A stretch of 51,129 bases of DNA from Bryobacterales bacterium (GTDB taxonomy: Bacteria > Acidobacteriota > Terriglobia > Bryobacterales > Bryobacteraceae), in contig PMTR01000080.1 of NCBI GenBank assembly GCA_003167255.1, forward strand, positions 1 through 51,129. The letters are read 5' to 3'. Of the stretch, positions 3,908 through 38,676 are shown one piece after another (position 1 is the first letter of the stretch; each line of letters opens with the position of its first letter). Below the pieces are notes generated by a model that was not told the origin of the DNA, ran no database searches, and was given only the letters and a program-made list of their open reading frames with translations. The position numbers and the translations under genes were made by a program.

Positions 3908-5218
3908 ATGCCGAAAATACTACTAGTCGAAGACGATCCCGCGCTCCAGTTCACCATCCAGACGGCTTTGGAAGCCAACGGCTATTCCGTGGATGCCGTC
4001 TCCACCACCGGCGACGCCATCGAGCGCCTTGCCGGTCAGGCTTACCCCATCGTAGTCACCGATATCTACATCGACGAACGCACCGGCCTCGACGTGCTGG
4101 ATGCCGCCAAGCGCAAAGATGCCCTCTGCTGCGTGATTTTGATGACTGGCCGCGGAACCATTGAAACCGTCATGGCCGCCACGCGCGGCGGGGCCTTCGA
4201 CTACATCGCCAAGCCATTTGAACTGGATGTGCTGCTGGACGCAATCAGCAGGGCCGAAGATGCGCGTAACCAGGACGAAGATGAATCTGCAGAAGAGGAA
4301 CCGCTCGAAACCGAGATGATCGGCACTTCGGCAGCCATGGTGGAAGTGTACAAGACCGTGTCTAAGACCGCTTCTACTGACGCGACCGTCATCATCGAAG
4401 GCGAGACCGGCACCGGCAAGGACCTGGTGGCGCGCATGATCCACCGCTTCAGCCGCCGCAAGGATCAGCCCTTCGTGCCGGTGGATTGCGGCTCCATCGC
4501 GCCCTCGCTGCTCGAAAGCGAATTGTTCGGCGCCATGCGCGGCGCTTTTACCGGCGCCGACCGCGACCGCATCGGCGTGTTCGAAGCGGCCAACCGCGGG
4601 ACCGTCTTCCTCGACGAAATCGGCGATATCGAACAGAATTTCCAATTGGCGCTGCTGCGTTTCCTGGAAAGCCACGAGATCCGCCCGGTGGGCGCTTCCC
4701 GCTCCAAAACCGTGGATGTGCGCGTGCTGGCCGCCACCAACCGCGACCTGCAGCGGATGGTGAATGAAAGCAAGTTCCGCGAGGACCTCTGGCATCGTCT
4801 CAACGTCGTGCGCATCGTCATGCCGCCCTTGAGAGAACGCCGCAGTGACATTCTCCTGCTAAGCCAACACTTCGTCAGGAAATACAACCAGCGCTATCAC
4901 CGCGACGTGAAACTGATGGACTCCGGCGCCGAAGAACTACAGGACCAGACCTGGCCCGGCAACGTCCGGCAGTTGCAGCACGTGATCGAGCGGATGGTCA
5001 TTCTGGCCGACCGCATCGACCAGGACGCCGTCGATGATGCGCTCACGGTCATGGAATCGCGCGAAAAGCCGGCCGAGACCCTGGCGGACGCCGAAGGGGA
5101 ACAGATCCGCAAGATGCTGGTTGCGATGGGCGGCAACAAAAGCAAGACCGCAAAGAAATTGGGGATCGAACGCAAGACCCTCTACCGCAAGCTCGAGCGC
5201 ATGAAGCCGCAAGCGTAG
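3908..5218 (+). CDS. NtrC-family sigma-54-dependent response regulator
   Basis: 436 residues. The receiver domain (1-115) has the acidic pocket EDD (8-10), phosphoacceptor D52 (VVTDIYID) and K102 (AKPF). The AAA+ domain (about 137-360) has Walker A GETGTGKD (165-172), the sigma-54 contact loop GAFTGA (212-217) and Walker B FLDEIGD. A Fis-type HTH lies at the C terminus (KTAKKLGIERKTLYRKL). When phosphorylated by the upstream kinase it should activate sigma-54 promoters as an oligomer. No convincing -24/-12 promoter was found in the window, so its targets are probably elsewhere. The loop preceding GAFTGA reads FGAMR rather than the more usual FGHEK. Confidence 0.95.
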   Translation: MPKILLVEDDPALQFTIQTALEANGYSVDAVSTTGDAIERLAGQAYPIVVTDIYIDERTGLDVLDAAKRKDALCCVILMTGRGTIETVMAATRGGAFDYIAKPFELDVLLDAISRAEDARNQDEDESAEEEPLETEMIGTSAAMVEVYKTVSKTASTDATVIIEGETGTGKDLVARMIHRFSRRKDQPFVPVDCGSIAPSLLESELFGAMRGAFTGADRDRIGVFEAANRGTVFLDEIGDIEQNFQLALLRFLESHEIRPVGASRSKTVDVRVLAATNRDLQRMVNESKFREDLWHRLNVVRIVMPPLRERRSDILLLSQHFVRKYNQRYHRDVKLMDSGAEELQDQTWPGNVRQLQHVIERMVILADRIDQDAVDDALTVMESREKPAETLADAEGEQIRKMLVAMGGNKSKTAKKLGIERKTLYRKLERMKPQA

Positions 5219-5275
5219 CTTTCTGACCGCCTGATATGGCGCTCTTGCGGAACGCCCTGCTCTCACCCGCGAACG

Positions 5276-5412
5276 CCTCCGCACCGAGCCGCGACCGTCA
5301 GAAGCTGTGAAAGAGTCCTGCCCCACAACCTATGCCGAACCTCACCGTTACGAAAACTAAGTGACATTGCGCACCCATGCGTGCCGCGTCGACACTCTTG
5401 TCGACGCCAGGC
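5276..5412. repeat. Fragments of repeat families A and D
   Basis: The 200-bp gap after the response regulator holds a short family-A core (about 5276-5300, GAGCCGCGACCGTCAGAAG) and, at 5361-5412, a half-element matching the left arm of the family-D palindrome at 14488-14612 (GTGCCGCGTCGACACTCTTG against GTGCCGCGTCGGCACTCTTG). No gene is visible between them. Confidence 0.65.
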
Positions 5413-5419
5413 TCACACC

Positions 5420-5719
5420 TCACGGCCGCCCGTCCTTCCAGTTCCACCACTTCAACATCTCCGGGTGAGGCTTCGGTTCCGAGGCGAAATAGACGGCGCA
5501 CCGGAATACATACAGCACGCACCGGTCCACGTGCCGGCCGGTCTCCCGGCAAAGTTCCGAATAGAGAGCCTCGGGACTTCGCCCTCTCAACCCGGCCACT
5601 TCTTGCACCCCGAGCAAGTAGAGATCGGAGGCGATGGACGGCCCCACTCCGGGAATGCGTGCGAGATCGGCGACTGCCCTCTTCTTTCCAGTCAGAGTGG
5701 CTGCTCTCATTCCGACCAC
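5420..5719 (-). CDS. Cdd1-like helix-hairpin-helix protein
   Basis: 99 residues. An HhH-type motif IPGVGPSIASDLYLLGV (about 22-38) is followed by an Arg- and Cys-containing segment, DRCVLYVFRCAVYFAS. This arrangement matches the family annotated as pathogenicity locus Cdd1 (from memory). HhH motifs usually bind DNA backbone, but no enzymatic role is established. The C terminus is Trp/Lys rich (WWNWKDG). The start at 5719 overlaps the end of the VOC gene at 5707 by 13 bases, so the two are co-transcribed. Function remains unknown beyond likely nucleic-acid binding. Confidence 0.75.
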   Translation of the reverse strand: MVGMRAATLTGKKRAVADLARIPGVGPSIASDLYLLGVQEVAGLRGRSPEALYSELCRETGRHVDRCVLYVFRCAVYFASEPKPHPEMLKWWNWKDGRP

Positions 5720-6087: not shown

Positions 6088-6183
6088 CGTTATGTCAGGA
6101 GGCTCAACGTATTACTATTCCCTGTTTTCTTAGCGGGCCGCGACGATTCTTCCGCGACCCAAGTCCGAAGGACGCAAGAGCAT

Positions 6184-6362
6184 AGCCCAGTGCGTCAGCA
6201 CTGGGAACCGCGCGCAGGACGCGTTAGCCCCGGAACGGGGCGTAAGAATCCGGGCTCAGGTGCATCTTTCGCCCCGTTCCGGGGCTGGTTTAATTGGCGA
6301 CCCGGACCCAGGGCTCTGCGCCCTGGGCTAAGATCTTTCGCCCTGACGGGCTCTGAGCGGAG
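6184..6362. repeat. REP-like palindrome cluster (family J)
   Basis: A run of short palindromes: CCCAGTGCGTCAGCACTGGG, then CCCCGGAACGGGG, a second GCCCCGTTCCGGGGC copy, and CCCAGGGCTCTGCGCCCTGGG. Such strings resemble REP elements mobilised in trans by RAYT (TnpA-REP) transposases, but no RAYT gene is present here. The cluster fills most of the gap 6088-6479 upstream of the WYL regulator. The rest of that gap shows no gene. Confidence 0.7.
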
Positions 6363-21423: not shown

Positions 21424-21741
21424 GGCTGGGCAGGCGGCACCGCCTGCCCCACCCACTGAAGGAAGCTTGACCAGCGATTGAAGTCCGAAGAGCCGGCTGA
21501 AGCCGGCTGCGGCCAGGATTGGCCGCCCCACAAAGCGGCGGAGCCGCAACCAAAATGGGTGCTTGGAAGCCCGCTCCACGAGGGCTGTGAAATCTTCGCG
21601 TGCTGCGAAGAATTTGAAGAGGTGTAATACAGAGCAGCGGAGCCTGCGCGGTTGGTGGGACAGACGATCGGTTTTTGTCGTCTGTCGGGCGCTGTGCTTG
21701 CCGAGACAAGACAGGCCACAAAAGACGATGGCCTGACCCAC
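21424..21741. repeat. Repeat cluster: families B, F and E
   Basis: The 339-bp gap between two convergent genes is largely repeats. A family-B-like palindrome lies at 21424-21453 (GGGCAGGCGGCACCGCCTGCC with flanks). Family F is at 21491-21552, containing GGCTGCGGCCAGGATTGGCC and shared with 51058-51122. A family-E inverted repeat spans 21655-21741, with arms GTGGGACAGACGATCGG and CCTGACCCAC. No gene is visible. Confidence 0.75.
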
Positions 21742-21758
21742 TCGGCATATAAGGAAGA

Positions 21759-24116
21759 TCAAAATCCTGTCTGCTCGGTGCGCGTGATGATCTCGTTTTG
21801 CAGGGCGGGGGTCAGGTCGCAGAAATAGTCGCTGTAGCCGGCGACGCGCACGATCAGGTCGCGGTGCTTTTCGGGATCGGCTTGCGCTTCGCGCAGGGTT
21901 TCGGCGGTCACTACGTTGAACTGGATGTGGTGGCCGTCGAGCTTGAAATAAGCGCGGACCAGGTGCGCCATATTATCGAGGCCTTCAGGGCCTTCCACAA
22001 GTTTGGGCGTGAACTTCTGGTTTAAGAGGGTGCCGCCGGTGCGGGCATGATCCATCTTGGCGGCGGACTTGATGACCGCGGTAGGGCCATGGCGGTCGGC
22101 GCCTTGGGCGGGCGAGATGCCGTCGGAGTGCGGCTCCCAGGCCTTGCGGCCGTCGGGCGTGGCGCCGGTCACCGAGCCGAAATAGACGTGGCAGGTGGTG
22201 CTCAAGTAGTTCACGCGGTAATGGCCGCCTTTGGTATTGGGGCGGCCGTTGATTTCATCGAAGAAGAGGTTGAAGACCTGCACCAGGATTTCGTCTGCGT
22301 AGGGATCGTCGTTGCCGTACTTGGGAGTCTTGTTCCAAAGCATCAGACGGGTCTTCTCACAGCCTTCGAAATTGACGCGCAAGGCCGCAAGTAGCTCGTC
22401 CATGGAAAGATGGCGGTGATCGAAGACGTGATACTTGATGGCCGCCAGACTGTCGGTCGCCGTGCCGGGCGCCACGGCCATGATGTAAGTGGAATTGTAG
22501 CGCGGGCCGCCGCCGTTATAGTCGCCGCCCTTGGAGATACAATCGTCGACCAGCAGGGAGAGATACGGCGCGGGCATGTTGCGGGCGTAGAGGCGCTCGA
22601 TAACATTGTTGCCGCGGATCTTGACATCTACCAGGTAATGTAACTGCCGGCGGAATGCGGCCAGCAGGTCGTCATAAGTCTGGAAGGTGCGCGGGTCACC
22701 GGATTCGATGCCGACTTGTTTGCCGGTGCGCGCGTCGAAACCGTTGGTGAGAGTGAGCTCGAGAACTTTGGGCAGGTTGAAGTAGCCCGTGAGGATATAG
22801 GCTTCCTTCCCGAAGGCGCCGGTTTCCACACAGCCGGAAATGCCGCCGGCGCGCGCGTCTTCAATGGACTTACCCTGCCGCAACAGTTCTTCCACCACCA
22901 TGTCGGCGTTGAAAATGGAGGGCTGGCCCCAACCCTTGCGCACGATTTCCAGGCCGCGCTTCAGGAAGCGGTCCGGACTCTTCTTACTCAGTTGCAGATT
23001 GGAAGAGGGCTGCAGCAGGCGCATCTCATCGATGACGTCGAGGACCAAGTAGGTAAGATCGTTGACGGCCGAGGAGCCATCGGGTTTCAGACCGCCGGTA
23101 TTGATGTTACAGAAATCGGTGTAAGTGCCGCTTTCGGCGGCGGTGACTCCCACTTTGGGCGGAGCCGGCTGGTTGTTGAACTTCACCCAGAAACAGCCGA
23201 GAAGCTCGCGCGCCTCCTCGCGGGTAAGCGCGCCGGCGTCGAGATCGCGCTGGTAGAAGGGATAGAGATGCTGGTCGAGATGGCCGGGGCTGAAGGAGTC
23301 CCAGGTGTTCAGTTCGGTGATGACGCTCAGGTGCGTGAACCAGTAAGCCTGCAGCGCTTCCCAGAAATTGCGCGGGGCGTGCGCGGGCACGTGGCGGCAG
23401 ACGGTCGAAATCTTTTCGAGCTCGGCCTTGCGCCGCGGATTGGTTTCGGCGGCGGCGAGCGATTCGGCCTTTTCGGCGTGGCGCTCGGCGAAGCGGATGA
23501 CGGCATCGGCGGCGATCGACATGGCGCGCAGTTGCTGCTGCTTGTCGTAAGCGAGAGGGTCGTTGAAGAAATCGAGGCGGGCGAGACTTTCGGCGACTTC
23601 GCGTTTGAGATCCAGCAGGCCTTTGCGGTAAATGACGTCGCCCAAAACGGTGTGGCCCGGCGCGCGCTGCTCCATGAATTCGGTGAAGATGCCGGCCGCG
23701 TAGGCGTCCTTCCATTCGGGCGTCATCTCGGCGAACATGCGGTCGCGCATGCTATGACCTTGCCAGTAGGGGATAATCTCTTCCTGCTGGACGCGGCGGG
23801 CCTCTTCGCCGACGGAGTAGGAAATCTTCTCGCGCGTGTGGAGGATCTGGAAGTCTTCGAGCGAGTGGCAGCACAGCTCGGGATAAGTGGGCGTGCCTTT
23901 GGGACGGGGTCCGCGCTCGCCGACGATCAGCTCTTCGGGACCGATGTAGATTGTGCGGCGTTCGAGGATGTACTGGAACGAGCCGGCGCGCAGCATGGGC
24001 GGGGAGAGCGGACCGGCCTGCCGGTAAAACTCGGTAAGTAGCGCGGCGCGTTCGAGCGAGAGCCACGGCTTGGTGTCCAGGCTCGCCTGGCGCAATTGAG
24101 CGACTCGTTCCGTCAT
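21759..24116 (-). CDS. hypD: Glycyl radical enzyme, trans-4-hydroxy-L-proline dehydratase type
   Basis: 785 residues from the ATG at 24116, preceded by AGGAG; a longer upstream frame is a shadow of the activase. The thiyl-radical site is GCVETGAFG (C429, with the general base E431), and the glycyl loop is RVAGYSDYF (G760). Remembered Clostridioides HypD residues C434, E436, G765, Y450, F340 and H160 all map here at a constant offset of five (C429, E431, G760, Y445, F335, H155), which supports conversion of trans-4-hydroxyproline to pyrroline-5-carboxylate. The enzyme is oxygen sensitive and must be activated by the adjacent radical-SAM protein two bases upstream. No proC is nearby. A relative with another substrate remains possible. 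Confidence 0.87.
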   Translation of the reverse strand: MTERVAQLRQASLDTKPWLSLERAALLTEFYRQAGPLSPPMLRAGSFQYILERRTIYIGPEELIVGERGPRPKGTPTYPELCCHSLEDFQILHTREKISYSVGEEARRVQQEEIIPYWQGHSMRDRMFAEMTPEWKDAYAAGIFTEFMEQRAPGHTVLGDVIYRKGLLDLKREVAESLARLDFFNDPLAYDKQQQLRAMSIAADAVIRFAERHAEKAESLAAAETNPRRKAELEKISTVCRHVPAHAPRNFWEALQAYWFTHLSVITELNTWDSFSPGHLDQHLYPFYQRDLDAGALTREEARELLGCFWVKFNNQPAPPKVGVTAAESGTYTDFCNINTGGLKPDGSSAVNDLTYLVLDVIDEMRLLQPSSNLQLSKKSPDRFLKRGLEIVRKGWGQPSIFNADMVVEELLRQGKSIEDARAGGISGCVETGAFGKEAYILTGYFNLPKVLELTLTNGFDARTGKQVGIESGDPRTFQTYDDLLAAFRRQLHYLVDVKIRGNNVIERLYARNMPAPYLSLLVDDCISKGGDYNGGGPRYNSTYIMAVAPGTATDSLAAIKYHVFDHRHLSMDELLAALRVNFEGCEKTRLMLWNKTPKYGNDDPYADEILVQVFNLFFDEINGRPNTKGGHYRVNYLSTTCHVYFGSVTGATPDGRKAWEPHSDGISPAQGADRHGPTAVIKSAAKMDHARTGGTLLNQKFTPKLVEGPEGLDNMAHLVRAYFKLDGHHIQFNVVTAETLREAQADPEKHRDLIVRVAGYSDYFCDLTPALQNEIITRTEQTGF

Positions 24117-24118
24117 AA

Positions 24119-25072
24119 TCAAACTCCTGGGGTCAATAGAGCCACATTCAATCCGGCTTCCGTCAGAGCATCGCGAAACGGTGCGAGATCCGCCGCTGCC
24201 GGTTGCGGCGTGTGAGGCAGCTTGTAGGGCAAACCCAGGCGCCGGTACTTGTCGGCGCCGATGCGGTGGTACGGAAGCAACTCGATGGCCGGGGGCCGCA
24301 GGCGGCTCAAGTATTCCACGAATCCGCCGATGTCTTCTGTGGAATCGTTGATGCCGGGGATTACCGGGATGCGCACGGTGAGCGGACGCTGGCGGGCCAC
24401 CAGTTGTTCGAGGTTGCGCAGGATCAAATCGCTGGAGACGCCGGTGTACTGGCGATGCTTGGCCGGGTCGACGAATTTGAGATCGAAGAGCACCAGGTCG
24501 GCCTGGAGCGCGACTTGCTGGAAGACGTCGGGCTGGGCAAAGCCGCAGGTTTCCAGGGTGGTGAAGATACCCCGCTCGCGGCAGGCCGCCAGGAAGAGAG
24601 TGACGAAGACCGGCTGAGACAGGGGCTCGCCGCCGGAGAGTGTGACACCGCCGCCGGATTCGTCGAAGAAGACGACGTCCTTTTCGACCTCCGCGATCAA
24701 TTCCTCCACGGTGTAGCGCTGGCCGGCGATCTGGCGGGCCTCGGCCATGCAGACGGTGGTGCAAGTGCCGCACAAGGTGCAGGCGTCGGAAGTGTGTACC
24801 ACGCCCTCGATTTCGCTGATGGCATGTTCGGGGCAGATGGCGCCGCATTCCAGGCAGTGGCGGCAGCGCTCCGTGAAGTAGAGGCGGTCAGGCAGGAAGC
24901 TCTGGCCTTCGGGGTTGTGGCACCACCAGCAGGACAGGGGACAACCTTTGAAGAAGACGACGGTGCGGATGCCCGGCCCGTCATGCGTAGCGAAGCGCAT
25001 GATGTTGAAAACGAGCGCGGTGCTCTCGTCAACCCCGCAAGTCTCTCGCCGTTCTGGTGTCAGAGAAGTCAC
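24119..25072 (-). CDS. hypE: Glycyl radical enzyme activase (radical SAM)
   Basis: 317 residues from GTG (position 25072). The radical-SAM cluster motif is CPLSCWWC (CX3CX2C), preceded by THDGPGIRTVVFFKG. A two-cluster ferredoxin insert follows (CRHCLECGAICP and CTLCGTCTTVC), as in activases of the dehydratase class. GGVTLSGGEPL is the SAM-binding GGE motif. It abstracts hydrogen from the glycine of its partner enzyme. It is the first gene of the operon; the dehydratase starts two bases after its stop. A TTG start inside (before DESTALVF) is an alternative. The name HypE here means the activase, not the hydrogenase-maturation protein. Confidence 0.93.
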   Translation of the reverse strand: MTSLTPERRETCGVDESTALVFNIMRFATHDGPGIRTVVFFKGCPLSCWWCHNPEGQSFLPDRLYFTERCRHCLECGAICPEHAISEIEGVVHTSDACTLCGTCTTVCMAEARQIAGQRYTVEELIAEVEKDVVFFDESGGGVTLSGGEPLSQPVFVTLFLAACRERGIFTTLETCGFAQPDVFQQVALQADLVLFDLKFVDPAKHRQYTGVSSDLILRNLEQLVARQRPLTVRIPVIPGINDSTEDIGGFVEYLSRLRPPAIELLPYHRIGADKYRRLGLPYKLPHTPQPAAADLAPFRDALTEAGLNVALLTPGV

Positions 25073-32885: not shown

Positions 32886-33793
32886 GCAGGCTCGCGACCT
32901 CCTTCTGCGGCATCGCGCTGCGCAACCCCGTGATCGCGGCCTCCGGCACCTTCGGTTATGGCATGGAGTTTGAGAAGCAAGTGGACCTCAACTCGCTCGG
33001 CGGCTTGGTGGTGAAGGGCCTGTCGCGAGAACCCATCGAAGGCAACCCCGCGCCGCGCCTCTATGAAACCGCCGCCGGCATGATCAACTCCATCGGTCTG
33101 CAAAACGTGGGAGTGCGCGCCTTCGTCGCCGAGAAACTGCCCGCGCTGGCAAAACTGCGGACGGCGGTCTTTGCCAACGTTTTCGGATACCAGACGGAAG
33201 ACTACGTGGAAGTGGCGCGCGTGTTGGAAGATCATGAGGGCCTGGCCGCGTACGAACTCAACGTTTCCTGCCCCAACACCAAACACGGCGGCATCTACTT
33301 TTCGAGCGACCCGGCTTTGCTGGGCGAAGTGGTCTCCGCGGTGAAGCGGGTGGTGCGCCGGCCGCTGATGGTAAAACTATCGCCCAACGTGGGCGCCATC
33401 GAGCCGCTGGCGCGCGCGGCCGCAGAGAGCGGCGCCGACGCTCTCTCGCTGGTGAATACTTTCGTGGCGCTGGCGATTGACGCGCACACACGCCGGCCGC
33501 GCATCGGTGCGGGCTTTGGCGGGCTCTCCGGGCCGGCCATCAAACCCATCGCGCTGCGGCTGGTGTGCCAGGCGGCGCGGGCGGTCAAGATCCCCGTCAT
33601 GGGCCTCGGCGGCATTGCTACCGGGGAAGACGCCGCCGAGTTTCTGATCGCCGGAGCTAGCGCCGTGCAGGTGGGGACGGCTACGTTCTGGGACCCGCAA
33701 TCGCCGGCGCGGATTGCGCGGGAGTTGGGCGAGTTTCTGGAGCGCGAGGGGATCGGGAACGTGGGGGAGATCGTCGGGACGTTGCAGATGTAA
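32882..33793 (+). CDS. pyrD: Dihydroorotate dehydrogenase, class 1B catalytic subunit
   Basis: 303 residues from the ATG at 32882, inside the preceding stop (ATGA overlap). It has the class-1 FMN barrel with catalytic Cys130 in NVSCPNTKHGG (class 1 uses Cys, class 2 Ser), substrate/FMN motifs VKLSPNVG and VNTF, and the phosphate-binding GLGGIATGEDAAEFL plus GASAVQVGTATF. It oxidises dihydroorotate to orotate in pyrimidine synthesis. Class 1B enzymes normally pair with the Fe-S/FAD subunit PyrK, and no pyrK is in the window. A repeat begins immediately after the TAA. Confidence 0.95.
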   Translation: MSRLATSFCGIALRNPVIAASGTFGYGMEFEKQVDLNSLGGLVVKGLSREPIEGNPAPRLYETAAGMINSIGLQNVGVRAFVAEKLPALAKLRTAVFANVFGYQTEDYVEVARVLEDHEGLAAYELNVSCPNTKHGGIYFSSDPALLGEVVSAVKRVVRRPLMVKLSPNVGAIEPLARAAAESGADALSLVNTFVALAIDAHTRRPRIGAGFGGLSGPAIKPIALRLVCQAARAVKIPVMGLGGIATGEDAAEFLIAGASAVQVGTATFWDPQSPARIARELGEFLEREGIGNVGEIVGTLQM

Positions 33794-33882
33794 GTGGGAC
33801 AGACCATCGGGTTTCGTGGTCTGTCATGTCTCTCCAAGCCCCAACTGCCTGACAGACGACAAAACCCGATCGTCTGTCCCAC
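33794..33882. repeat. Inverted repeat, family E, abutting the pyrD stop
   Basis: Outer arms GTGGGACAGACCATCGGG and CCCGATCGTCTGTCCCAC, with an inner GGTCTGTCATG / GACAGACG pairing. The first base follows the pyrD TAA directly, and the element lies between two convergent genes, so it could stop transcription from both sides. A diverged copy is at 21655-21741. Confidence 0.8.
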
Positions 33883-33895
33883 TGTGATTCGCTGC

Positions 33896-34309
33896 TCAGT
33901 CGACGCTGTAGACGCCGTCGAAATCGCAGAAGAAACACTGCACCGCGAGAGTTGGCTCAGCGCCTTGCAGTACTTGAGTGGCGGTCTGCAGGTCGGCGGT
34001 CTGCGTTTCCACCGGCGCGCCCGGGTAAGCGCCGCAATCGCTGTGGGCGAACATCCAGAGGCGCGTGGAGTGGTGCAGGCGCATCGAGGTGCGGACCATG
34101 CGGAGCACGAAATCGCGGTCGGCCTCGGTATCGGGAGTGGCCAGGGCTTTGGCGGAGCCGGGGATCTTGATCTGGTCGTAGGTGAGGATGCCGCGGCGCT
34201 TCAGAAACTTGCGCAGGGCCAAATCGAAGCGGGCGTCGAAGCAAGAAATGATGCAGGCGTCGGCCTGGTACACTTCCCGTGCGCAGTCGAAGTGGAAGAG
34301 CTTCTGCAT
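33896..34309 (-). CDS. Beta-carbonic-anhydrase-like protein
   Basis: 137 residues. The zinc-site motifs of beta-class carbonic anhydrases are present in short form: CFDARF (C-x-D-x-R) near the N terminus and HSDCGAY (H-x-x-C) about 60 residues later. IPGSAKALA follows, in the place where classic enzymes have the RNAG loop. The protein is much shorter than a classic enzyme (about 200 residues). It could be a minimal anhydrase or a zinc protein of different function. It is last in the minus-strand stress operon, 168 bases after pspA, with repeat G in between, so co-transcription is probable but not certain. Confidence 0.65.
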   Translation of the reverse strand: MQKLFHFDCAREVYQADACIISCFDARFDLALRKFLKRRGILTYDQIKIPGSAKALATPDTEADRDFVLRMVRTSMRLHHSTRLWMFAHSDCGAYPGAPVETQTADLQTATQVLQGAEPTLAVQCFFCDFDGVYSVD

Positions 34310-34355
34310 GGAATTCCGCGTGGGGCAGGCAATTCTGGCTGCCGCTACTCCCTAC

Positions 34356-34455
34356 TGGTAGCGCCGGCGGTCTTTGCCGCCGGTGCTTTGTCGCGCTTCA
34401 CAATCATCGCTCTTTGGGATCAGCGAACCGGCGGCGGAGACCGCCGGCGCTACCA
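34356..34455. repeat. Inverted repeat, family G
   Basis: Arms TGGTAGCGCCGGCGGTCTTT (34356 on) and AGACCGCCGGCGCTACCA (ending 34455), enclosing a ~40-base loop. A single arm is also at 15714-15743. It lies between pspA and the carbonic-anhydrase-like gene and could reduce read-through between them. Confidence 0.75.
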
Positions 34456-34477
34456 GTCGGCGGGAAGCCTCCACAGG

Positions 34478-35140
34478 CTATCCGGCTTTGCGCTTGGCTT
34501 TGAGGTCGTTCAGCAGGCGGTCGATTTCATCCTGCTTTTCCATTGCGGCGAACTTGTCGTCCACGTTGTCGGCCAGCAGCTCGGACTTGGCCTGCGCGGT
34601 GGCTTCGGTGTGCCGCACTTTGGTCTTCATGCGGTCGAAGGCCGCGGCGTTCGACGATTCACCCATGTTCAGGCCGGCCTCGTTGGCTTTGTTCAGAGCC
34701 CGCGAGCGCCGGTGCTGGGCGATCAGCATGTCGCTTTTGGATTGCGCCTCCACCAGCTTCTGTTGCAGTTTGAGCAGCGCACCCTTGAGGTTTTCCACTT
34801 GCGTCTTCTGGTCTTCCACCTGCTGCTTGAAACTCTCGGCGGTGGATTGGTAGCTCATGGAACGCTCCACGGCCGCGCGCGCCAGCGTATCGTCTTTCTT
34901 GTCGACGGCCATTTCCGCTCGGCGCATCCATTGGCGCCCGCTCTCTTCGCTTTCGGAGAGTTTCTTGTCGAGCACGTGCTGGTCGGCAATCGAGATCGCC
35001 ACCTGGGTCTTCACCTGGAGCAACTGGTTCTGCATGTCCAGGATGACTTGCTTGATCATCTTTTCGGGGTCTTCGGCCTTATCTACCAGGTCGTTGATAT
35101 TGGCCCGAACCAAAGTTGAGACTCGCTCTAAGAGTGCCAT
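34478..35140 (-). CDS. pspA: PspA/IM30-family membrane-stress protein
   Basis: 220 residues, almost entirely alpha-helical coiled coil (about 25-190), with the family start MALLERVSTLVRANINDLVDKAEDPEKM: an amphipathic membrane-binding helix followed by the conserved DP-x-K-M. The segment MIKQVILDMQNQLLQVKTQVA is typical. PspA/Vipp1 proteins are ESCRT-III relatives that assemble on damaged inner membranes. AAGGAG precedes the start. It sits 15 bases after the flotillin stop, in one operon with flotillin and NfeD-like proteins, which supports a membrane-repair or membrane-domain role. Confidence 0.93.
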   Translation of the reverse strand: MALLERVSTLVRANINDLVDKAEDPEKMIKQVILDMQNQLLQVKTQVAISIADQHVLDKKLSESEESGRQWMRRAEMAVDKKDDTLARAAVERSMSYQSTAESFKQQVEDQKTQVENLKGALLKLQQKLVEAQSKSDMLIAQHRRSRALNKANEAGLNMGESSNAAAFDRMKTKVRHTEATAQAKSELLADNVDDKFAAMEKQDEIDRLLNDLKAKRKAG

Positions 35141-35155
35141 GGAATTCTCCTTGGG

Positions 35156-36598
35156 TTATGGTTTCGTTTCCGTGCCCTGTGCCGTGTCCCCTGGCTTGGG
35201 CGTCTTGTCGCCGATCATCCGCACTTTCGCGAAGAGTTCGCTCATGGGCATGCCCGAGAGGGTCTCGAACAGTGCGGGGATCTGCGCCGCCATTTGTGTG
35301 ATGTCTCCCGTGATCTTGTGGAGACCCGCGGTATCGCCGCTGCCGGTGGAGACGATGGTGATCTTGTCCACGTTGGCGAGCGGTGCGGCCAGGGCCCTGA
35401 CGATCTCGGGCATGTTGGTGATCAGCTTGTCGACGATGGCCGCCTGGTTGAACTGCTGGTAGGCCTCGGCCTTCACGTTCATGGCTCTGGCTTCGGCGTC
35501 GCCCTTTTTGAAGATGATTTCGGCTTCGGCTTCACCCTGCGTGCGGATAGCCGCGGCATGGCCTTCGGCCTCCATGGTAAGGCGCTGCTTCTCGGCTTCC
35601 GCCAGGGTCTCGATGCGCTTGCGCTCATACTCGGCGGCTTTGTACACGGTGGCGGTGAGCTCGCGGTCGCGGCGCAGAATTTCGGCGTCCTGCACCTTGA
35701 CCTCGTGCTCCTTCTCGACCTGGTGGATGGTGACTTCCTCGGCGCGCACCTGCTGCTGCATGATGTTGCCTTGGATTTCGTAAGCCTTGTCGGCGATGGC
35801 CTGCTGTTTCTTGACCATCTCCAGATACTCGGCCTTCTTGACTTCCAGATCGCGCTGCGCCTCGGCCTGCTTGGCCTGCGAAAGCGTCTCCGCGAGCACC
35901 CGTTCCTGGTCGGCCTGGGCCTTGGCGACGGCGGCTTCGCGGGAGGCCACGGCGCGCCTGATAGCCGTGTCGCGATCGGCTTCCGCGGTTGCCACGTCGG
36001 CATCGCGCTTGATGCGCGCCACGTCTGGCCGGCCCATGTTGCTGATGTAATCGTTCTTGTCGCGGACTTCCTTGATGGTAAAGGAAATCACTTCGAGACC
36101 CATCTTGTTCATGTCGTCGGCGCAGGTGGAGCGCATGCGGTCGCCCACCATTTCGGGCTGCTTGACGATCTCTTCCACCGTGAGCTGGCCGATGATGCCG
36201 CGCAGGTGGCCTTCCATCACCAGGCGGATCAAACCCTCGCGCTCCTCGGGCGGCTTGGTGAGGAACTGTTCGGCCGCCGTCAGAATGCTCTCCGGGTCCG
36301 ACTTCACTTTGATCTGCGCCACCGCTTCCACCGTGACGGCAACACCCTGGCGGGTGTAGAGGTCCTGTTTCGGTGCGACGTCGAACGACATCAGCTCGAG
36401 CGACAGCCCACGGCACGACTGCACCATGGGGTAAATGACGGTGCCACGGCCCTTGATGACGCGCGTGCCGCCGAAACCGTAGACAATCAGCGCTTCGTGC
36501 GGGCCGGCTTTGCGGTACAGCTTGGCGAAGACCGCCATGATGAACATCAGCGCCAGCAGGCAGATGCCGGCGATTATAATGGGAGTTGTGTAATCCAT
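35156..36598 (-). CDS. floT: Flotillin-like SPFH protein
   Basis: 480 residues. An N-terminal hydrophobic hairpin (about 6-26) is followed by the SPFH/Band-7 domain (about 28-190) with VYGFGGTRVIKGRGTVIYP and QDLYTRQGVAVTVEAVAQIK. A long coiled coil rich in Ala/Glu repeats (about 200-370), the flotillin domain, follows. The C terminus is polar. Flotillins scaffold membrane microdomains and pair with NfeD proteins; the NfeD-like gene lies 19 bases upstream in the operon. Length and order match YuaG/FloT and YqiK. No clear ribosome-binding site is visible before the start. Confidence 0.93.
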   Translation of the reverse strand: MDYTTPIIIAGICLLALMFIMAVFAKLYRKAGPHEALIVYGFGGTRVIKGRGTVIYPMVQSCRGLSLELMSFDVAPKQDLYTRQGVAVTVEAVAQIKVKSDPESILTAAEQFLTKPPEEREGLIRLVMEGHLRGIIGQLTVEEIVKQPEMVGDRMRSTCADDMNKMGLEVISFTIKEVRDKNDYISNMGRPDVARIKRDADVATAEADRDTAIRRAVASREAAVAKAQADQERVLAETLSQAKQAEAQRDLEVKKAEYLEMVKKQQAIADKAYEIQGNIMQQQVRAEEVTIHQVEKEHEVKVQDAEILRRDRELTATVYKAAEYERKRIETLAEAEKQRLTMEAEGHAAAIRTQGEAEAEIIFKKGDAEARAMNVKAEAYQQFNQAAIVDKLITNMPEIVRALAAPLANVDKITIVSTGSGDTAGLHKITGDITQMAAQIPALFETLSGMPMSELFAKVRMIGDKTPKPGDTAQGTETKP

Positions 36599-36617
36599 AA
36601 AAGGTGACGCCTCTCTT

Positions 36618-37199
36618 CTAGCTCTTGGGCTGTGGTTCCTCCGCCGGGTCTTCCCAGCGGCGCACGTACGCCAGCCCCTTCTCGTAGCGTGTCACAATCA
36701 CTTCGGCGCCTTTGGCGATGGCCGCGCCATCTTCGCTGCGGGCCCCCGCGACATGGCGCGTGCCGCCCTGCGAGTAAACCACTTCTCCGGTGCCCCCGGG
36801 ACGGATTGGAATGGAGGTGCGGCCCAGCACCCCGACCATGTCATAGTCGGCCGGATCGAGCGGCTGCTCATCGGCCATCAGCACTTTGACCAAAAAAAGG
36901 AATACCAGCGAGGCGGCGCCCAGGCCGCTCAACGTAGCCACTACAATCGCGACGACCACCCAGACGTGGAAATAGTGCTCGAGCAGATAACCGGTGCCGC
37001 CGAACCAGGCCAGAAACGCGGCGATGGTGCCGAAATTGAACCATGGCATCTGGCTGCCGCGCGCGCTGCCGGGAATATGAATGCCGTGATGCAGGTGCAG
37101 ATGCGGCAGATGCAAATGAGTCGTACCGGCCACCAGCGCCAGCGCGCTGAGGCCGAAGCCCACCAGGAACGAGGTGAGATAGAAATCGGACCACGTCAT
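36618..37199 (-). CDS. NfeD-like membrane protein with OB-fold tail
   Basis: 193 residues from the ATG at 37199 (MTWSDFYLTSFLVGFG), which overlaps the stop of the regulator gene by four bases. It has an N-terminal TM, a His-rich loop (THLHLPHLHLHHGIHIP, about 27-43), two more TM helices (about 58-75 and 82-108), then an NfeD-type C-terminal OB-fold (about 120-185; VGVLGRTSIPIRPGGTGEV and AIAKGAEVIVTRYEKGLAYVR). NfeD proteins are flotillin partners. The His-rich stretch, eight His in 17 residues, is unusual and may bind metal. A longer upstream frame is a shadow of the XRE gene. Confidence 0.85.
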   Translation of the reverse strand: MTWSDFYLTSFLVGFGLSALALVAGTTHLHLPHLHLHHGIHIPGSARGSQMPWFNFGTIAAFLAWFGGTGYLLEHYFHVWVVVAIVVATLSGLGAASLVFLFLVKVLMADEQPLDPADYDMVGVLGRTSIPIRPGGTGEVVYSQGGTRHVAGARSEDGAAIAKGAEVIVTRYEKGLAYVRRWEDPAEEPQPKS

Positions 37200-37693
37200 G
37201 AACGTCTCCTCGTCTTGCGCGCCGAAGCCAATGGCTTGAGCACTTCCATCAATCGCTCGGCCAGCCCCGGGTTTTCGAGCACCGTGCCCAACAGCACGAT
37301 GCACATGCGCGAATCGGCGTGGCGCGCCACCGCCAGCAATGCGTGGTGCAGTTCCGGGTCTTTGCGGAAACGCTCCGCGCCGCTCACCAGCCACAAGTCA
37401 AGCTTGTCTTCGAGCGCGCCCACGTCGGAGATCAGCTCGTTCTGAAACCCTTCGGGGTCGTCCACCAGGTAGCCCGGATGCACTTTGAAGAACCGCGCCA
37501 GCAGCATGCGCGTCGAATTGGTAAGGTGCGGACGCGCGCCGCTCTCGATTTGCGAGAGGTAGCTCTGGCTGATGGACTTTCCCAGCTCTTTTTGGATCAG
37601 CCGGGCCATCTCGAGTTGAGAGAGCTCACGGTCGAACCCGCGGAGCGTGCCTTCCACTTCGCGGAGGTAGCGGAGCTTTTCGCCGAGCTTCAT
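37196..37693 (-). CDS. XRE-family transcriptional regulator of the stress operon
   Basis: 165 residues from the ATG at 37693 (MKLGEKLRYLREVEG); an upstream ATG-like start at 37738 would lie in the -35 element and is rejected. The HTH_3 domain (about 1-75) contains LSQLEMARLIQKELGKSISQSYLSQIESG (recognition helix region SQSYLSQIE). The C-terminal half (about 90-165) is a helical domain of unknown ligand. It opens a minus-strand operon with the NfeD-like, flotillin and PspA genes and probably autoregulates it from the repeated half-sites in its promoter. No ribosome-binding site is seen before the start. Confidence 0.88.
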   Translation of the reverse strand: MKLGEKLRYLREVEGTLRGFDRELSQLEMARLIQKELGKSISQSYLSQIESGARPHLTNSTRMLLARFFKVHPGYLVDDPEGFQNELISDVGALEDKLDLWLVSGAERFRKDPELHHALLAVARHADSRMCIVLLGTVLENPGLAERLMEVLKPLASARKTRRRS

Positions 37694-37738
37694 ATGGCAA
37701 TCTGTGATTACTATATTGCAAATTGCGATGGATGTCAA
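37694..37738 (-). promoter_or_regulatory. Strong near-leaderless promoter of the stress operon
   Basis: On the minus strand TTGACA (37733-37738), a 17-base spacer and TATAGT (37710-37715) match sigma-70 consensus closely. Transcription should start about 7 bases after the -10, leaving fewer than ~10 bases before the ATG and no Shine-Dalgarno. Two imperfect copies of a TCGCAATTTGCAAT / TCACAGATTGCCAT unit overlap the spacer, the -10 and the start, and are operator candidates for the XRE regulator. Confidence 0.65.
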
Positions 37739-38506: not shown

Positions 38507-38520
38507 GCGAGTGCTCCCAT

Positions 38521-38648
38521 GGTGGGGCGGACCCCCTGGTCCGCGGCCGACGCCCCCGTCGGCCTGTTCGTGTTTTGCGGGATGCCGATCTCGTTGTTCG
38601 GGATGCGGGACGAGGGCGTCCCGCGCAGACCGGGGGGTCTGCCCCACC
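38521..38648. repeat. Composite palindromic repeat, families C/B
   Basis: Outer arms GGTGGGGCGGACCCCCTGGT and GACCGGGGGGTCTGCCCCACC (split over 38628-38648), with inner palindromes such as GGGACGAGGGCGTCCC. It fills the gap between the SDR start and the MFS stop. The family-C unit is the same as that inside dnaE2. Confidence 0.8.
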
Positions 38649-38676
38649 AATGCGTTGACGGGCGATTTCTTCGCAG

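Follow-up and report, generated by a model that had tools for sequence, protein, structure and literature searches.

The window, by which we mean the whole analysed stretch of 51,129 nucleotides, comes from a soil bacterium of an acidobacterial group and carries a set of five genes, all on the minus strand. They encode an XRE-family helix-turn-helix (HTH) regulator of 165 aa (37196..37693), an NfeD/YuaF-like membrane protein of 193 aa (36618..37199), a flotillin of 480 aa (35156..36598), a PspA/IM30 family protein of 220 aa (34478..35140) and a Pro_CA_2 minimal beta-carbonic-anhydrase-like (CA-like) protein of 137 aa (33896..34309). All five genes named in the original prediction are present in the predicted set, which confirms that observation as a whole; the tight packing described there holds for the XRE, NfeD-like, flotillin and PspA genes but not for the CA gene, which is 168 bp away from PspA. 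Beyond the CA gene lies a convergent plus-strand gene, identified by eye as pyrD.

The XRE protein has an HTH domain of the Cro/C1 kind (HTH_3, 25.8 bits against a cut-off of 23), and its closest solved relative is EspR (E 5e-4). The NfeD-like protein scores 13.4 bits as a single sequence, under the Pfam cut-off of 29.1, while six of seven orthologues hit NfeD with E values no higher than 0.1, the lowest being 0.0095, and a profile of orthologues (n=7) finds YuaF (2k14, E 0.0029). Both domains expected of a flotillin, SPFH/Band_7 (105.2 bits, cut-off 23.6) and the Flot C-terminal domain (35 bits, cut-off 27), are above their cut-offs; against the FloT model the protein scores 333 bits, under the equivalog cut-off of 700. 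The PspA_IM30 domain by which the Psp system is recognized is found at 138.9 bits (cut-off 33.9). A role in anti-phage defence was considered and set aside, as PADLOC gave no useful match; its sole hit was that of the XRE protein to HTH_VI (E 0.0018). The order XRE-NfeD-flotillin-PspA is kept in relatives and constitutes the core, present in 43 of 150 sampled genomes; these are the genomes with flotillin matches of at least 65% identity among at most ten candidates scored per genome, the weak matches being listed only in part. The sampled genomes are related, and the counts given here are therefore not counts of independent events.

A sigma-70-type promoter with boxes TTGACA and TATAGT and a spacer of 17 (11/12 matches in the promoter scan) occupies 37738..37710 on the minus strand. 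The alternative XRE start at TTG 37738 was dropped because this TTG opens the -35 box, and ATG 37693 was taken instead. Since this ATG comes 16 nt after the -10 box, the leader is probably about 10 nt long, which bears out the near-leaderless promoter of the original prediction. The operator-like repeated units also noticed there proved to be real and form a conserved 36-bp site (37694..37729, minus strand; consensus and pattern searches) that consists of two 15-bp palindromes of the ATNGCANNTTGCNAT type with centres 21 bp apart. The -10 box sits between the two palindromes, the second of which abuts the XRE ATG, so that the operator overlies the promoter spacer and extends to the XRE start. 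The site is found in 34 of 40 XRE loci (at least 23/36 consensus matches), in 28 of those 34 at 0-2 nt from the start. Allowing up to three mismatches, the operator pattern occurs in 37 of 40 core genomes versus 0 of 40 non-core genomes (reversed-pattern control 0/80), a count that leaves out core genomes G100, G147 and G142; the strict pattern occurs in 14/43 core versus 0/37 non-core genomes. The core genomes lacking a match are G136 and G008 (in both, by eye, a spacer one base longer) and G131 (XRE gene cut at a contig end). A position weight matrix used 30 of the 34 sites for training, after one duplicate had been collapsed and L130, L133 and L144, whose sites are over 40 bp away from the annotated start, had been excluded; in the window it scores 57 bits at the operator, 31 bits at the next match, taken as the opposite-strand reading of that site, and then -0.5. 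The operator is therefore real as a conserved sequence element, and its binding by the XRE protein is putative. A palindromic operator at the regulator's own promoter, conserved together with the XRE gene, is what would be expected of an autoregulator, and the XRE protein is likely an autorepressor, the direction of regulation being read solely from the operator position.

An XRE orthologue is present in 41 of the 150 sampled genomes, every one of them within the 43 genomes with a flotillin orthologue; in G092 it is a single gene divided between two overlapping contig ends, not a second copy, and the distant flotillin loci L150, L168 and L169 (38-39% identity) gave no XRE match. The genome under study has three operators, one at this locus, one upstream of a second PspA operon and one upstream of a short hairpin-ended stretch. 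The second operon has the order 139 aa-PspA2-188 aa-secreted. The operator lies within 400 bp upstream of it in 6 of 30 genomes having that operon, and all six carry XRE, compared to 0 of 7 genomes with the operon but without XRE; among testable XRE genomes having the second operon, the trans target is seen in 6 of 22. The first gene thus appears to control its own set and a second membrane-repair set elsewhere in the genome via a conserved, putative DNA switch. Further operator sites were observed in G064 (contigs C96 and C106, close to contig ends) and in G126 (C443). The 139-aa and 188-aa proteins have no Pfam match at E 1, and scanning the second operon against NCBI families returned PspA models only, below their cut-offs. 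The labels 'CesT' and 'DUF4178' for this operon, which would agree with a survey of PSP systems, were not confirmed by Pfam and PDB profile searches: eight orthologues of the 139-aa type of small protein gave only three unrelated weak Pfam matches and none to a CesT/Tir domain, and the PDB profile search with the small protein found no CesT chain. At the third operator site there is a small frame of eight codons plus stop. A conserved RNA at this site was rejected: the 161-bp query has matches in 13 of 20 genomes, yet those listed, save the self match and another of 30 bp, span query positions 18-75, which are the promoter and operator, and an Rfam scan gave only matches far under the family cut-offs.

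The CA-like protein passes the curated cut-off of Pro_CA_2 (PF20393; 58 versus 30 bits). The zinc motif of beta-carbonic anhydrases (beta-CAs) is Cys-x-Asp-x-Arg ... His-x-x-Cys, and the corresponding residues, Cys23-x-Asp25-x-Arg27 and His89-x-x-Cys92, are present; all five (C23, D25, R27, H89, C92) are invariant, in 62 of 62 aligned rows. The predicted structural model has the beta-CA fold, which COS and CS2 hydrolases share. A phmmer search of the single protein against the PDB gave cytochrome matches only, judged spurious, while a profile search yields beta-CAs; a search for a phage origin found no match among 50,697 phage records. The protein can thus be described as having a predicted beta-CA fold and an intact zinc motif, and as a putative enzyme.

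According to the original prediction, the link to the CA-like gene would be accidental if relatives kept the four-gene core but never that gene. The survey of gene order proposed there found that part of the relatives do keep it. The CA gene is located downstream of PspA in 7 of the 43 core genomes, and it is within 2.5 kb of PspA, in two orders, in 19 of 65 loci from a wider, partly overlapping scan, in which six loci are the same records as genomes of the core sample and for which the alignment held 6/10 operon-type rows, so that this fraction is not an unbiased frequency. When only loci with 1 kb or more of upstream sequence are counted, the CA gene adjoins PspA in 18 of 59 and is not beside it in 41. 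In 36 of the 43 core genomes no CA gene was observed next to the operon, although in one of these, G134, both genes are at contig ends and linkage cannot be told, and the contigs of G110 and G060 end early; the CA figure of 16/43 omits G146, whose CA match has 27% identity (E 9e-5). Because of these 36 core genomes and 41 CA loci without adjacency, the CA gene is accessory and stands outside the core. Most CA-linked relatives have a sixth gene, for a small bacterial PH (bPH) protein, between PspA and CA; it is missing here. The 168-bp gap in the window instead holds an imperfect palindrome with 34-nt arms (34351-34384 / 34427-34460), an interspersed repeat (34351..34460, no strand assigned) of a genome-wide family, absent in the nearest sibling, L229, where the gap is 38 bp. 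A second interspersed palindromic repeat, also from a repeat family, occupies 33793..33883 (no strand assigned), beyond the CA gene and before the convergent gene on the plus strand. The possibility that these palindromes are operon-specific signals is ruled out by their membership in repeat families; of 195 and 207 candidates at first look, only 40 per family were scored, and the copy numbers are therefore minimum values. A terminator separating PspA from CA was set aside because no terminator-like site was called on the minus strand of the gap. Co-transcription of CA with PspA is putative here because the gap with its long palindrome lies between them.

The CA-like gene could be a passenger, that is, a stand-alone gene in a permissive spot behind PspA without a functional tie. 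Such an origin would agree with the 36 core genomes showing no CA gene beside the operon, with the repeats that flank the gene in the window, with L268, L270 and L275, where other frames separate PspA from CA, and with a large clade of the CA tree whose genes are stand-alone save one row. It is nonetheless quite unlikely in our estimate: CA adjoins PspA in 18 of the 59 loci that could be tested, the spacing is close in L253, L236, L277, L282 and L229 (4, 7, 17, 24 and 38 bp, respectively), and in G109 the gene stands beside a different PspA operon, that of PspA2. On the CA tree, for which 61 of the 65 loci scored high enough, the distribution of the PSP-linked label requires 5 events of gain or loss compared to 17 in shuffles, and four of the five are forced by supported branches; the count omits L248, L252, L264, L273 and L279 (less than 1 kb upstream) and retains L284, also short, as PspA was seen there. 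The dN/dS of the CA gene is 0.15 versus the sibling L229 (core genes 0.04-0.11), which indicates that the gene is under purifying selection though faster-evolving than the core genes. The link of CA to the Psp operon, which recurs in several lineages, is probably not accidental.

The protein might instead use its beta-CA fold to hydrolyse carbonyl sulfide or carbon disulfide, or might bind zinc without being an enzyme at all; we regard this reading as unlikely. No examined sequence feature tells the substrates apart, and in structure comparison the CS2 hydrolase 3ten (Z 13.4) and the COS hydrolase 3vqj (Z 13.0) come near the beta-CAs (Z up to 14.5); beta-CAs are at the top in both the sequence profile and Foldseek, and Z gaps below 1 are ties. 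As for the double operator, known from sequence only, it might be an activator site, or a protein different from the adjacent XRE regulator might use it. We consider this improbable, since the operator tracks the XRE core operon in the genome comparison above and its placement over the promoter spacer, around the -10 box and up to the start fits repression.

We conclude, with a probability of roughly 0.72, that the locus is a Psp-type (phage-shock) membrane-repair operon, putatively autoregulated by its own first gene, with an accessory beta-CA. Repression would come from XRE dimers that sit on both palindromes and block RNA polymerase, and membrane damage would free XRE, perhaps because PspA, flotillin or NfeD titrates it at the membrane. 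The inner leaflet would be scaffolded by flotillin together with NfeD, and PspA would coat the lesions. The small beta-CA, if co-produced, would interconvert CO2 and bicarbonate, or hydrolyse COS or CS2, and its action could aid pH or bicarbonate balance while the membrane leaks protons.

Sensing and control of Psp systems are mostly open outside a few model groups, and with a conserved operator and one presumed cognate regulator, a class-wide regulon could be read from sequence. The recurrent beta-CA by PspA is an unexpected lead, suggesting that membrane repair may include a proton/bicarbonate enzyme. It is conceivable, though we think it rather unlikely in its full extent, that the XRE repressor and its tandem operator define a Psp regulon in the acidobacterial class Terriglobia, comprising two PspA operons in trans, a small RNA or leader-peptide-like transcript (in this genome), and a minimal beta-CA with a PH-domain membrane protein at the damage site, which would bring bicarbonate/proton balance within membrane repair.

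Cab-type beta-CAs carry the CxDxR...HxxC zinc motif. The CA-like protein resembles them in fold (Z 14.5 for 1g5c and 13.8 for Rv1284, 1ylk) but has 137 aa compared to 155 and 163 residues in 1g5c and 1ylk, with 15-22% identity by two aligners. Among the matches listed in the open-licence literature, none reports a link of a beta-CA with flotillin/PspA, nor of CA with the Acidobacteria flotillin, PspA and XRE set; PF20393 was not found in these papers, other Pro_CA_2 matches were ProcA2-like words, and there was none for a small beta-CA in Acidobacteria.

The yuaF-floT operon of B. subtilis combines an NfeD-like protein with flotillin and is controlled by sigma factors, whereas the putative regulator here is an XRE protein encoded in the operon. 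In the same species an SPFH protein ties a phage-shock protein to the membrane (PMC8581546). A 2024 PSP survey (PMC11237479) describes CesT/Tir-PspA and band-7/flotillin/YuaF operons; its main text has no occurrence of 'carbonic' or 'bPH'. As here, PspA goes with band-7 plus flotillin and a YuaF-like membrane protein, and a small protein is separately paired with PspA, a dyad that in one group of the survey comes with a beta-rich DUF4178 protein. The sets there are combined in one operon or stand alone, whereas here two operons at separate places have a common operator. The closest precedent is an Acidobacteriota neighbourhood published in 2022 (PMC9239133), in which, like here, PspA occurs with band-7/FloT, NfeD and an HTH regulator that, according to its authors, potentially controls the operon. 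The original interpretation as a membrane-stress operon of known partners is supported, but the XRE regulator at the head, which it counted towards an unusual combination, is not unusual, since an HTH regulator beside PspA-band7/FloT-NfeD in this phylum had already been described. The operator, the trans target and the PH-domain gene are absent from that account, and 'carbonic anhydrase' has no occurrence in its main text. The core make-up in Acidobacteriota is therefore already known, and what goes beyond it, as far as that paper extends, is the probable CA link, the bPH gene and the operator with its putative trans target.

The operon comprises five genes, all on the minus strand of the window, in the order XRE (37196-37693), NfeD-like (36618-37199), flotillin (35156-36598), PspA (34478-35140) and a gene for a 137-aa carbonic-anhydrase-like (CA) protein (33896-34309). 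Matches exceed the Pfam cut-offs for HTH_3 (XRE), Band_7 and Flot (flotillin), PspA_IM30 (PspA) and Pro_CA_2 (CA protein). The operon is present as originally described, with the corrections that XRE starts at ATG 37693, the TTG at 37738 being the beginning of the -35 box, and that 168 bp separate the CA gene from PspA. The NfeD-like protein falls below the Pfam NfeD cut-off, and a profile of seven of its orthologues matches the B. subtilis NfeD-like protein YuaF at E 0.0029. Flotillin is found at 65% identity or more in 43 of the 150 genomes drawn from the order (henceforth core genomes), and an XRE orthologue in 41, every one among those 43; in the two flotillin genomes without an XRE match (G142, G147) the contig starts within flotillin. 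The order XRE, NfeD, flotillin, PspA on a single strand is kept in the fetched loci, the exceptions being cuts at contig ends. In G100 and G126 the flotillin gene is broken up over more than one frame, and a DUF1648 protein lies between NfeD and flotillin in the related operon L282 (extra frames 4549-5544). The four-gene core is conserved and already known: PMC9239133 reports genes for band-7/FloT, NfeD and an HTH regulator alongside PspA in Acidobacteriota, and places a band-7_Flot protein near 11 of 19 acidobacterial PspAs. An XRE gene leading the operon is hence expected from the literature. The original interpretation is supported in part.

The upstream regions of XRE in relatives share a common layout: TTGACA is followed by two 15-bp palindromes with the -10 box between them, the second palindrome being centred 21 bp beyond the first and ending at the XRE ATG. 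This 36-bp double operator matches the consensus at 23 or more of 36 positions in 34 of 40 XRE loci (loci lacking upstream sequence scored 18-19), and 28 of the 34 sites lie 0-2 nt from the start. XRE is cut by a contig end in three of the 40 loci, the spacer appears by eye one base longer in G008 and G136, and in G085 the operator lies about 2 kb up from XRE, ahead of an extra gene. That gene (L195 3558, G085:C114) looks by eye like a secreted, serine-hydrolase-like protein. A strict operator pattern occurs in 14 of 43 core genomes versus none of 37 others, and with up to three mismatches in 37 of 40 versus none of 40, where the 40 comparison genomes include seven with a second PspA operon but no XRE; the genomes are related and the events hence not independent. 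A reversed-pattern control gave no hits in 80 genomes. The absence of the operator from non-core genomes of the same family is nevertheless a strong control. Weaker recognisable sites (22-32 bits) lie near the XRE start in L256, L268, L270, L277, L282 and L288, and one of 12.8 bits in L283. Several of these records carry an Acidobacteriaceae label (order Terriglobales), so the arrangement probably predates Bryobacterales as an order.

The window's own genome (7.35 Mb) has one XRE gene of this kind and exactly three double-operator places. The second, on contig G000:C34, stands ahead of an operon whose products are a 139-aa protein, another PspA (142 bits for PspA_IM30), a 188-aa protein and a 519-aa secreted-looking protein. 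A search with the first of these proteins finds this second operon in 30 of the 150 genomes, 23 of them core genomes. Using a weight matrix trained on XRE promoters only, we find a double operator (42-59 bits) within 400 bp upstream in six of the 30 (G014, G138, G129, G000, G121, G086) and, over the same 400 bp, in none of the seven genomes without XRE; G088 has N bases upstream and hence no score. The six of 30 suggest that the second operon either joined the regulon in only some branches of the family or left it in the others. A further target would be a gene for a secreted-looking protein, preceded by a double operator in G014, G096 and G111 (L294 4065, L295 3928, L296 4029); the start of the G014 protein, the only one scanned, reaches 24 bits for CarboxypepD_reg, under the 32.3 cut-off. 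Other candidate targets are second XRE copies, one in G126 and one at the end of a contig in G110, and the contig-end sites of G086 and G092 belong to the 5' part of an XRE gene split over two contigs. At the third place (G000:C71:51274-51309; L175 5275-5388) the operator is followed by a frame of eight codons and a stop, and then by a strong hairpin (fold z -2.9) whose T run makes it resemble an intrinsic terminator. The sequence is not conserved in 19 relatives searched and has no Rfam match above cut-off; it may encode a small RNA or a leader peptide, which XRE would control.

A CA-like gene is present in 20 of the 150 genomes, i.e., in 16 of 43 core genomes versus 3 of 107 others when one weak match (G146) is omitted. 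It follows the core operon in seven of the 43 (G000, G111, G126, G096, G088, G129, G047) and lies elsewhere in the remaining nine, including G134, where both genes are at contig ends. The PspA and CA genes of G134 (starts of G134:C69 and G134:C723) are possibly true neighbours. Named genome contigs were also scanned, with an alignment of 10 rows of which 6 are of operon type, and gave 65 CA loci. In 19 of them a core-type PspA lies upstream on the CA strand at no more than 2.5 kb; of the 59 loci that have 1 kb or more of upstream sequence, 18 show this arrangement and 41 are not beside PspA. Six of the 19 repeat records of the first sample and 13 are new. Some relatives thus do carry the CA gene with the core, contrary to the outcome that would have made the link accidental, although the CA gene is accessory. 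The linked loci include ones labelled Bryobacterales, Acidobacteriaceae and, in one case each, Syntrophobacter (L253) and Gammaproteobacteria (L282); these last two contigs carry an acidobacterial-type operon with CA, possibly through mis-binning or transfer. PspA and CA are spaced by 4, 7, 17, 24 and 38 bp in L253, L236, L277, L282 and L229. Other frames intervene in L268, L270 and L275, and those in related operons encode a DUF4019 protein or an alpha/beta-hydrolase (L270 6915-7379, L268 6148-7899). In G109 (L242) the CA gene lies behind the second PspA operon instead of the core operon. Linkage to PspA requires five changes on the CA tree (gains or losses; four forced by supported branches) versus about 17 in shuffles.

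Judged by the CA gene, Bryobacterales bacterium isolate palsa_349 (L229, 88% identical) is the closest relative with a name, and we accordingly place the organism in Bryobacterales, Acidobacteriota. Between this sibling and the window the CA dN/dS is 0.15 over 117 codons, with 0.04-0.11 for the four core genes and 0.12-0.32 for CA in three other pairs; the CA gene is under purifying selection. In G047 one contig end carries its codons 2-107 (L116/L244, G047:C31 end) and another its codons 106-136 (L164, G047:C63 end), as if the gene were interrupted by a repeat or inserted element within the gene. All 62 aligned rows share the same Cys-x-Asp-x-Arg and His-x-x-Cys residues. An AF2 model from a 51-row alignment (pLDDT 95.8, pTM 0.88) matches only beta-CAs among the 15 Foldseek matches with E of at most 0.001. 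A second aligner, which re-aligns Foldseek's own matches only, gives beta-CAs, COS hydrolase or CS2 hydrolase for all 50 entries shown, the top score being that of Cab at Z 14.5 with an rmsd of 2.8 across 111 residues; the CA protein is shorter than every chain among these 50. The modelled beta-CA fold is shared by enzymes of CO2, COS and CS2, and does not separate these substrates.

A sixth gene, encoding a protein of about 125-140 aa, lies between PspA and CA in G111, G126, G096, G088, G047, L230 and L235; G014, G092 and G138 have it with no CA gene next to it, and in G110 the contig ends within it. By eye the protein shows two hydrophobic stretches. It also matches the bacterial PH-like domain bPH_4, with 26.2 bits in G047, above the 22.9 cut-off, and 22.2 in G088, just below. 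The gene is absent from the window, the sibling L229 and G129. The window's PspA-CA gap holds a long imperfect palindrome (34351-34460) of an interspersed repeat family of the genome. Since the 38-bp gap of the sibling lacks this palindrome, it would most simply have arrived after the loss of the sixth gene. Long imperfect palindromes that likewise belong to interspersed repeat families of the genome lie at 33793-33883 and 21655-21742, and another long imperfect palindrome at 38520-38649. Elsewhere in the window we observed an Acido-Lenti-1 RNA (Rfam, 6162-6205, minus strand, 45.5 bits, cut-off 37) and, by eye, frames resembling a glycyl-radical enzyme and its activating enzyme (21759-25072, minus strand).

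The most probable mechanism is autorepression, with XRE occupying both palindromes over the promoter and start; their 21-bp centre distance, two helical turns, would place them on one face of the DNA. Membrane stress might release XRE, possibly via PspA, flotillin or NfeD, by analogy with PspA-PspF. More tentatively, the CA protein might act on the proton/bicarbonate balance near a leaking membrane. In the portions of the literature covered by our searches we found no report of a dedicated operator, of a second PspA operon controlled in trans, of the gene with the PH domain or of a recurrent beta-CA. These four features, with the trans control a prediction, appear to be what this system adds to the known core.
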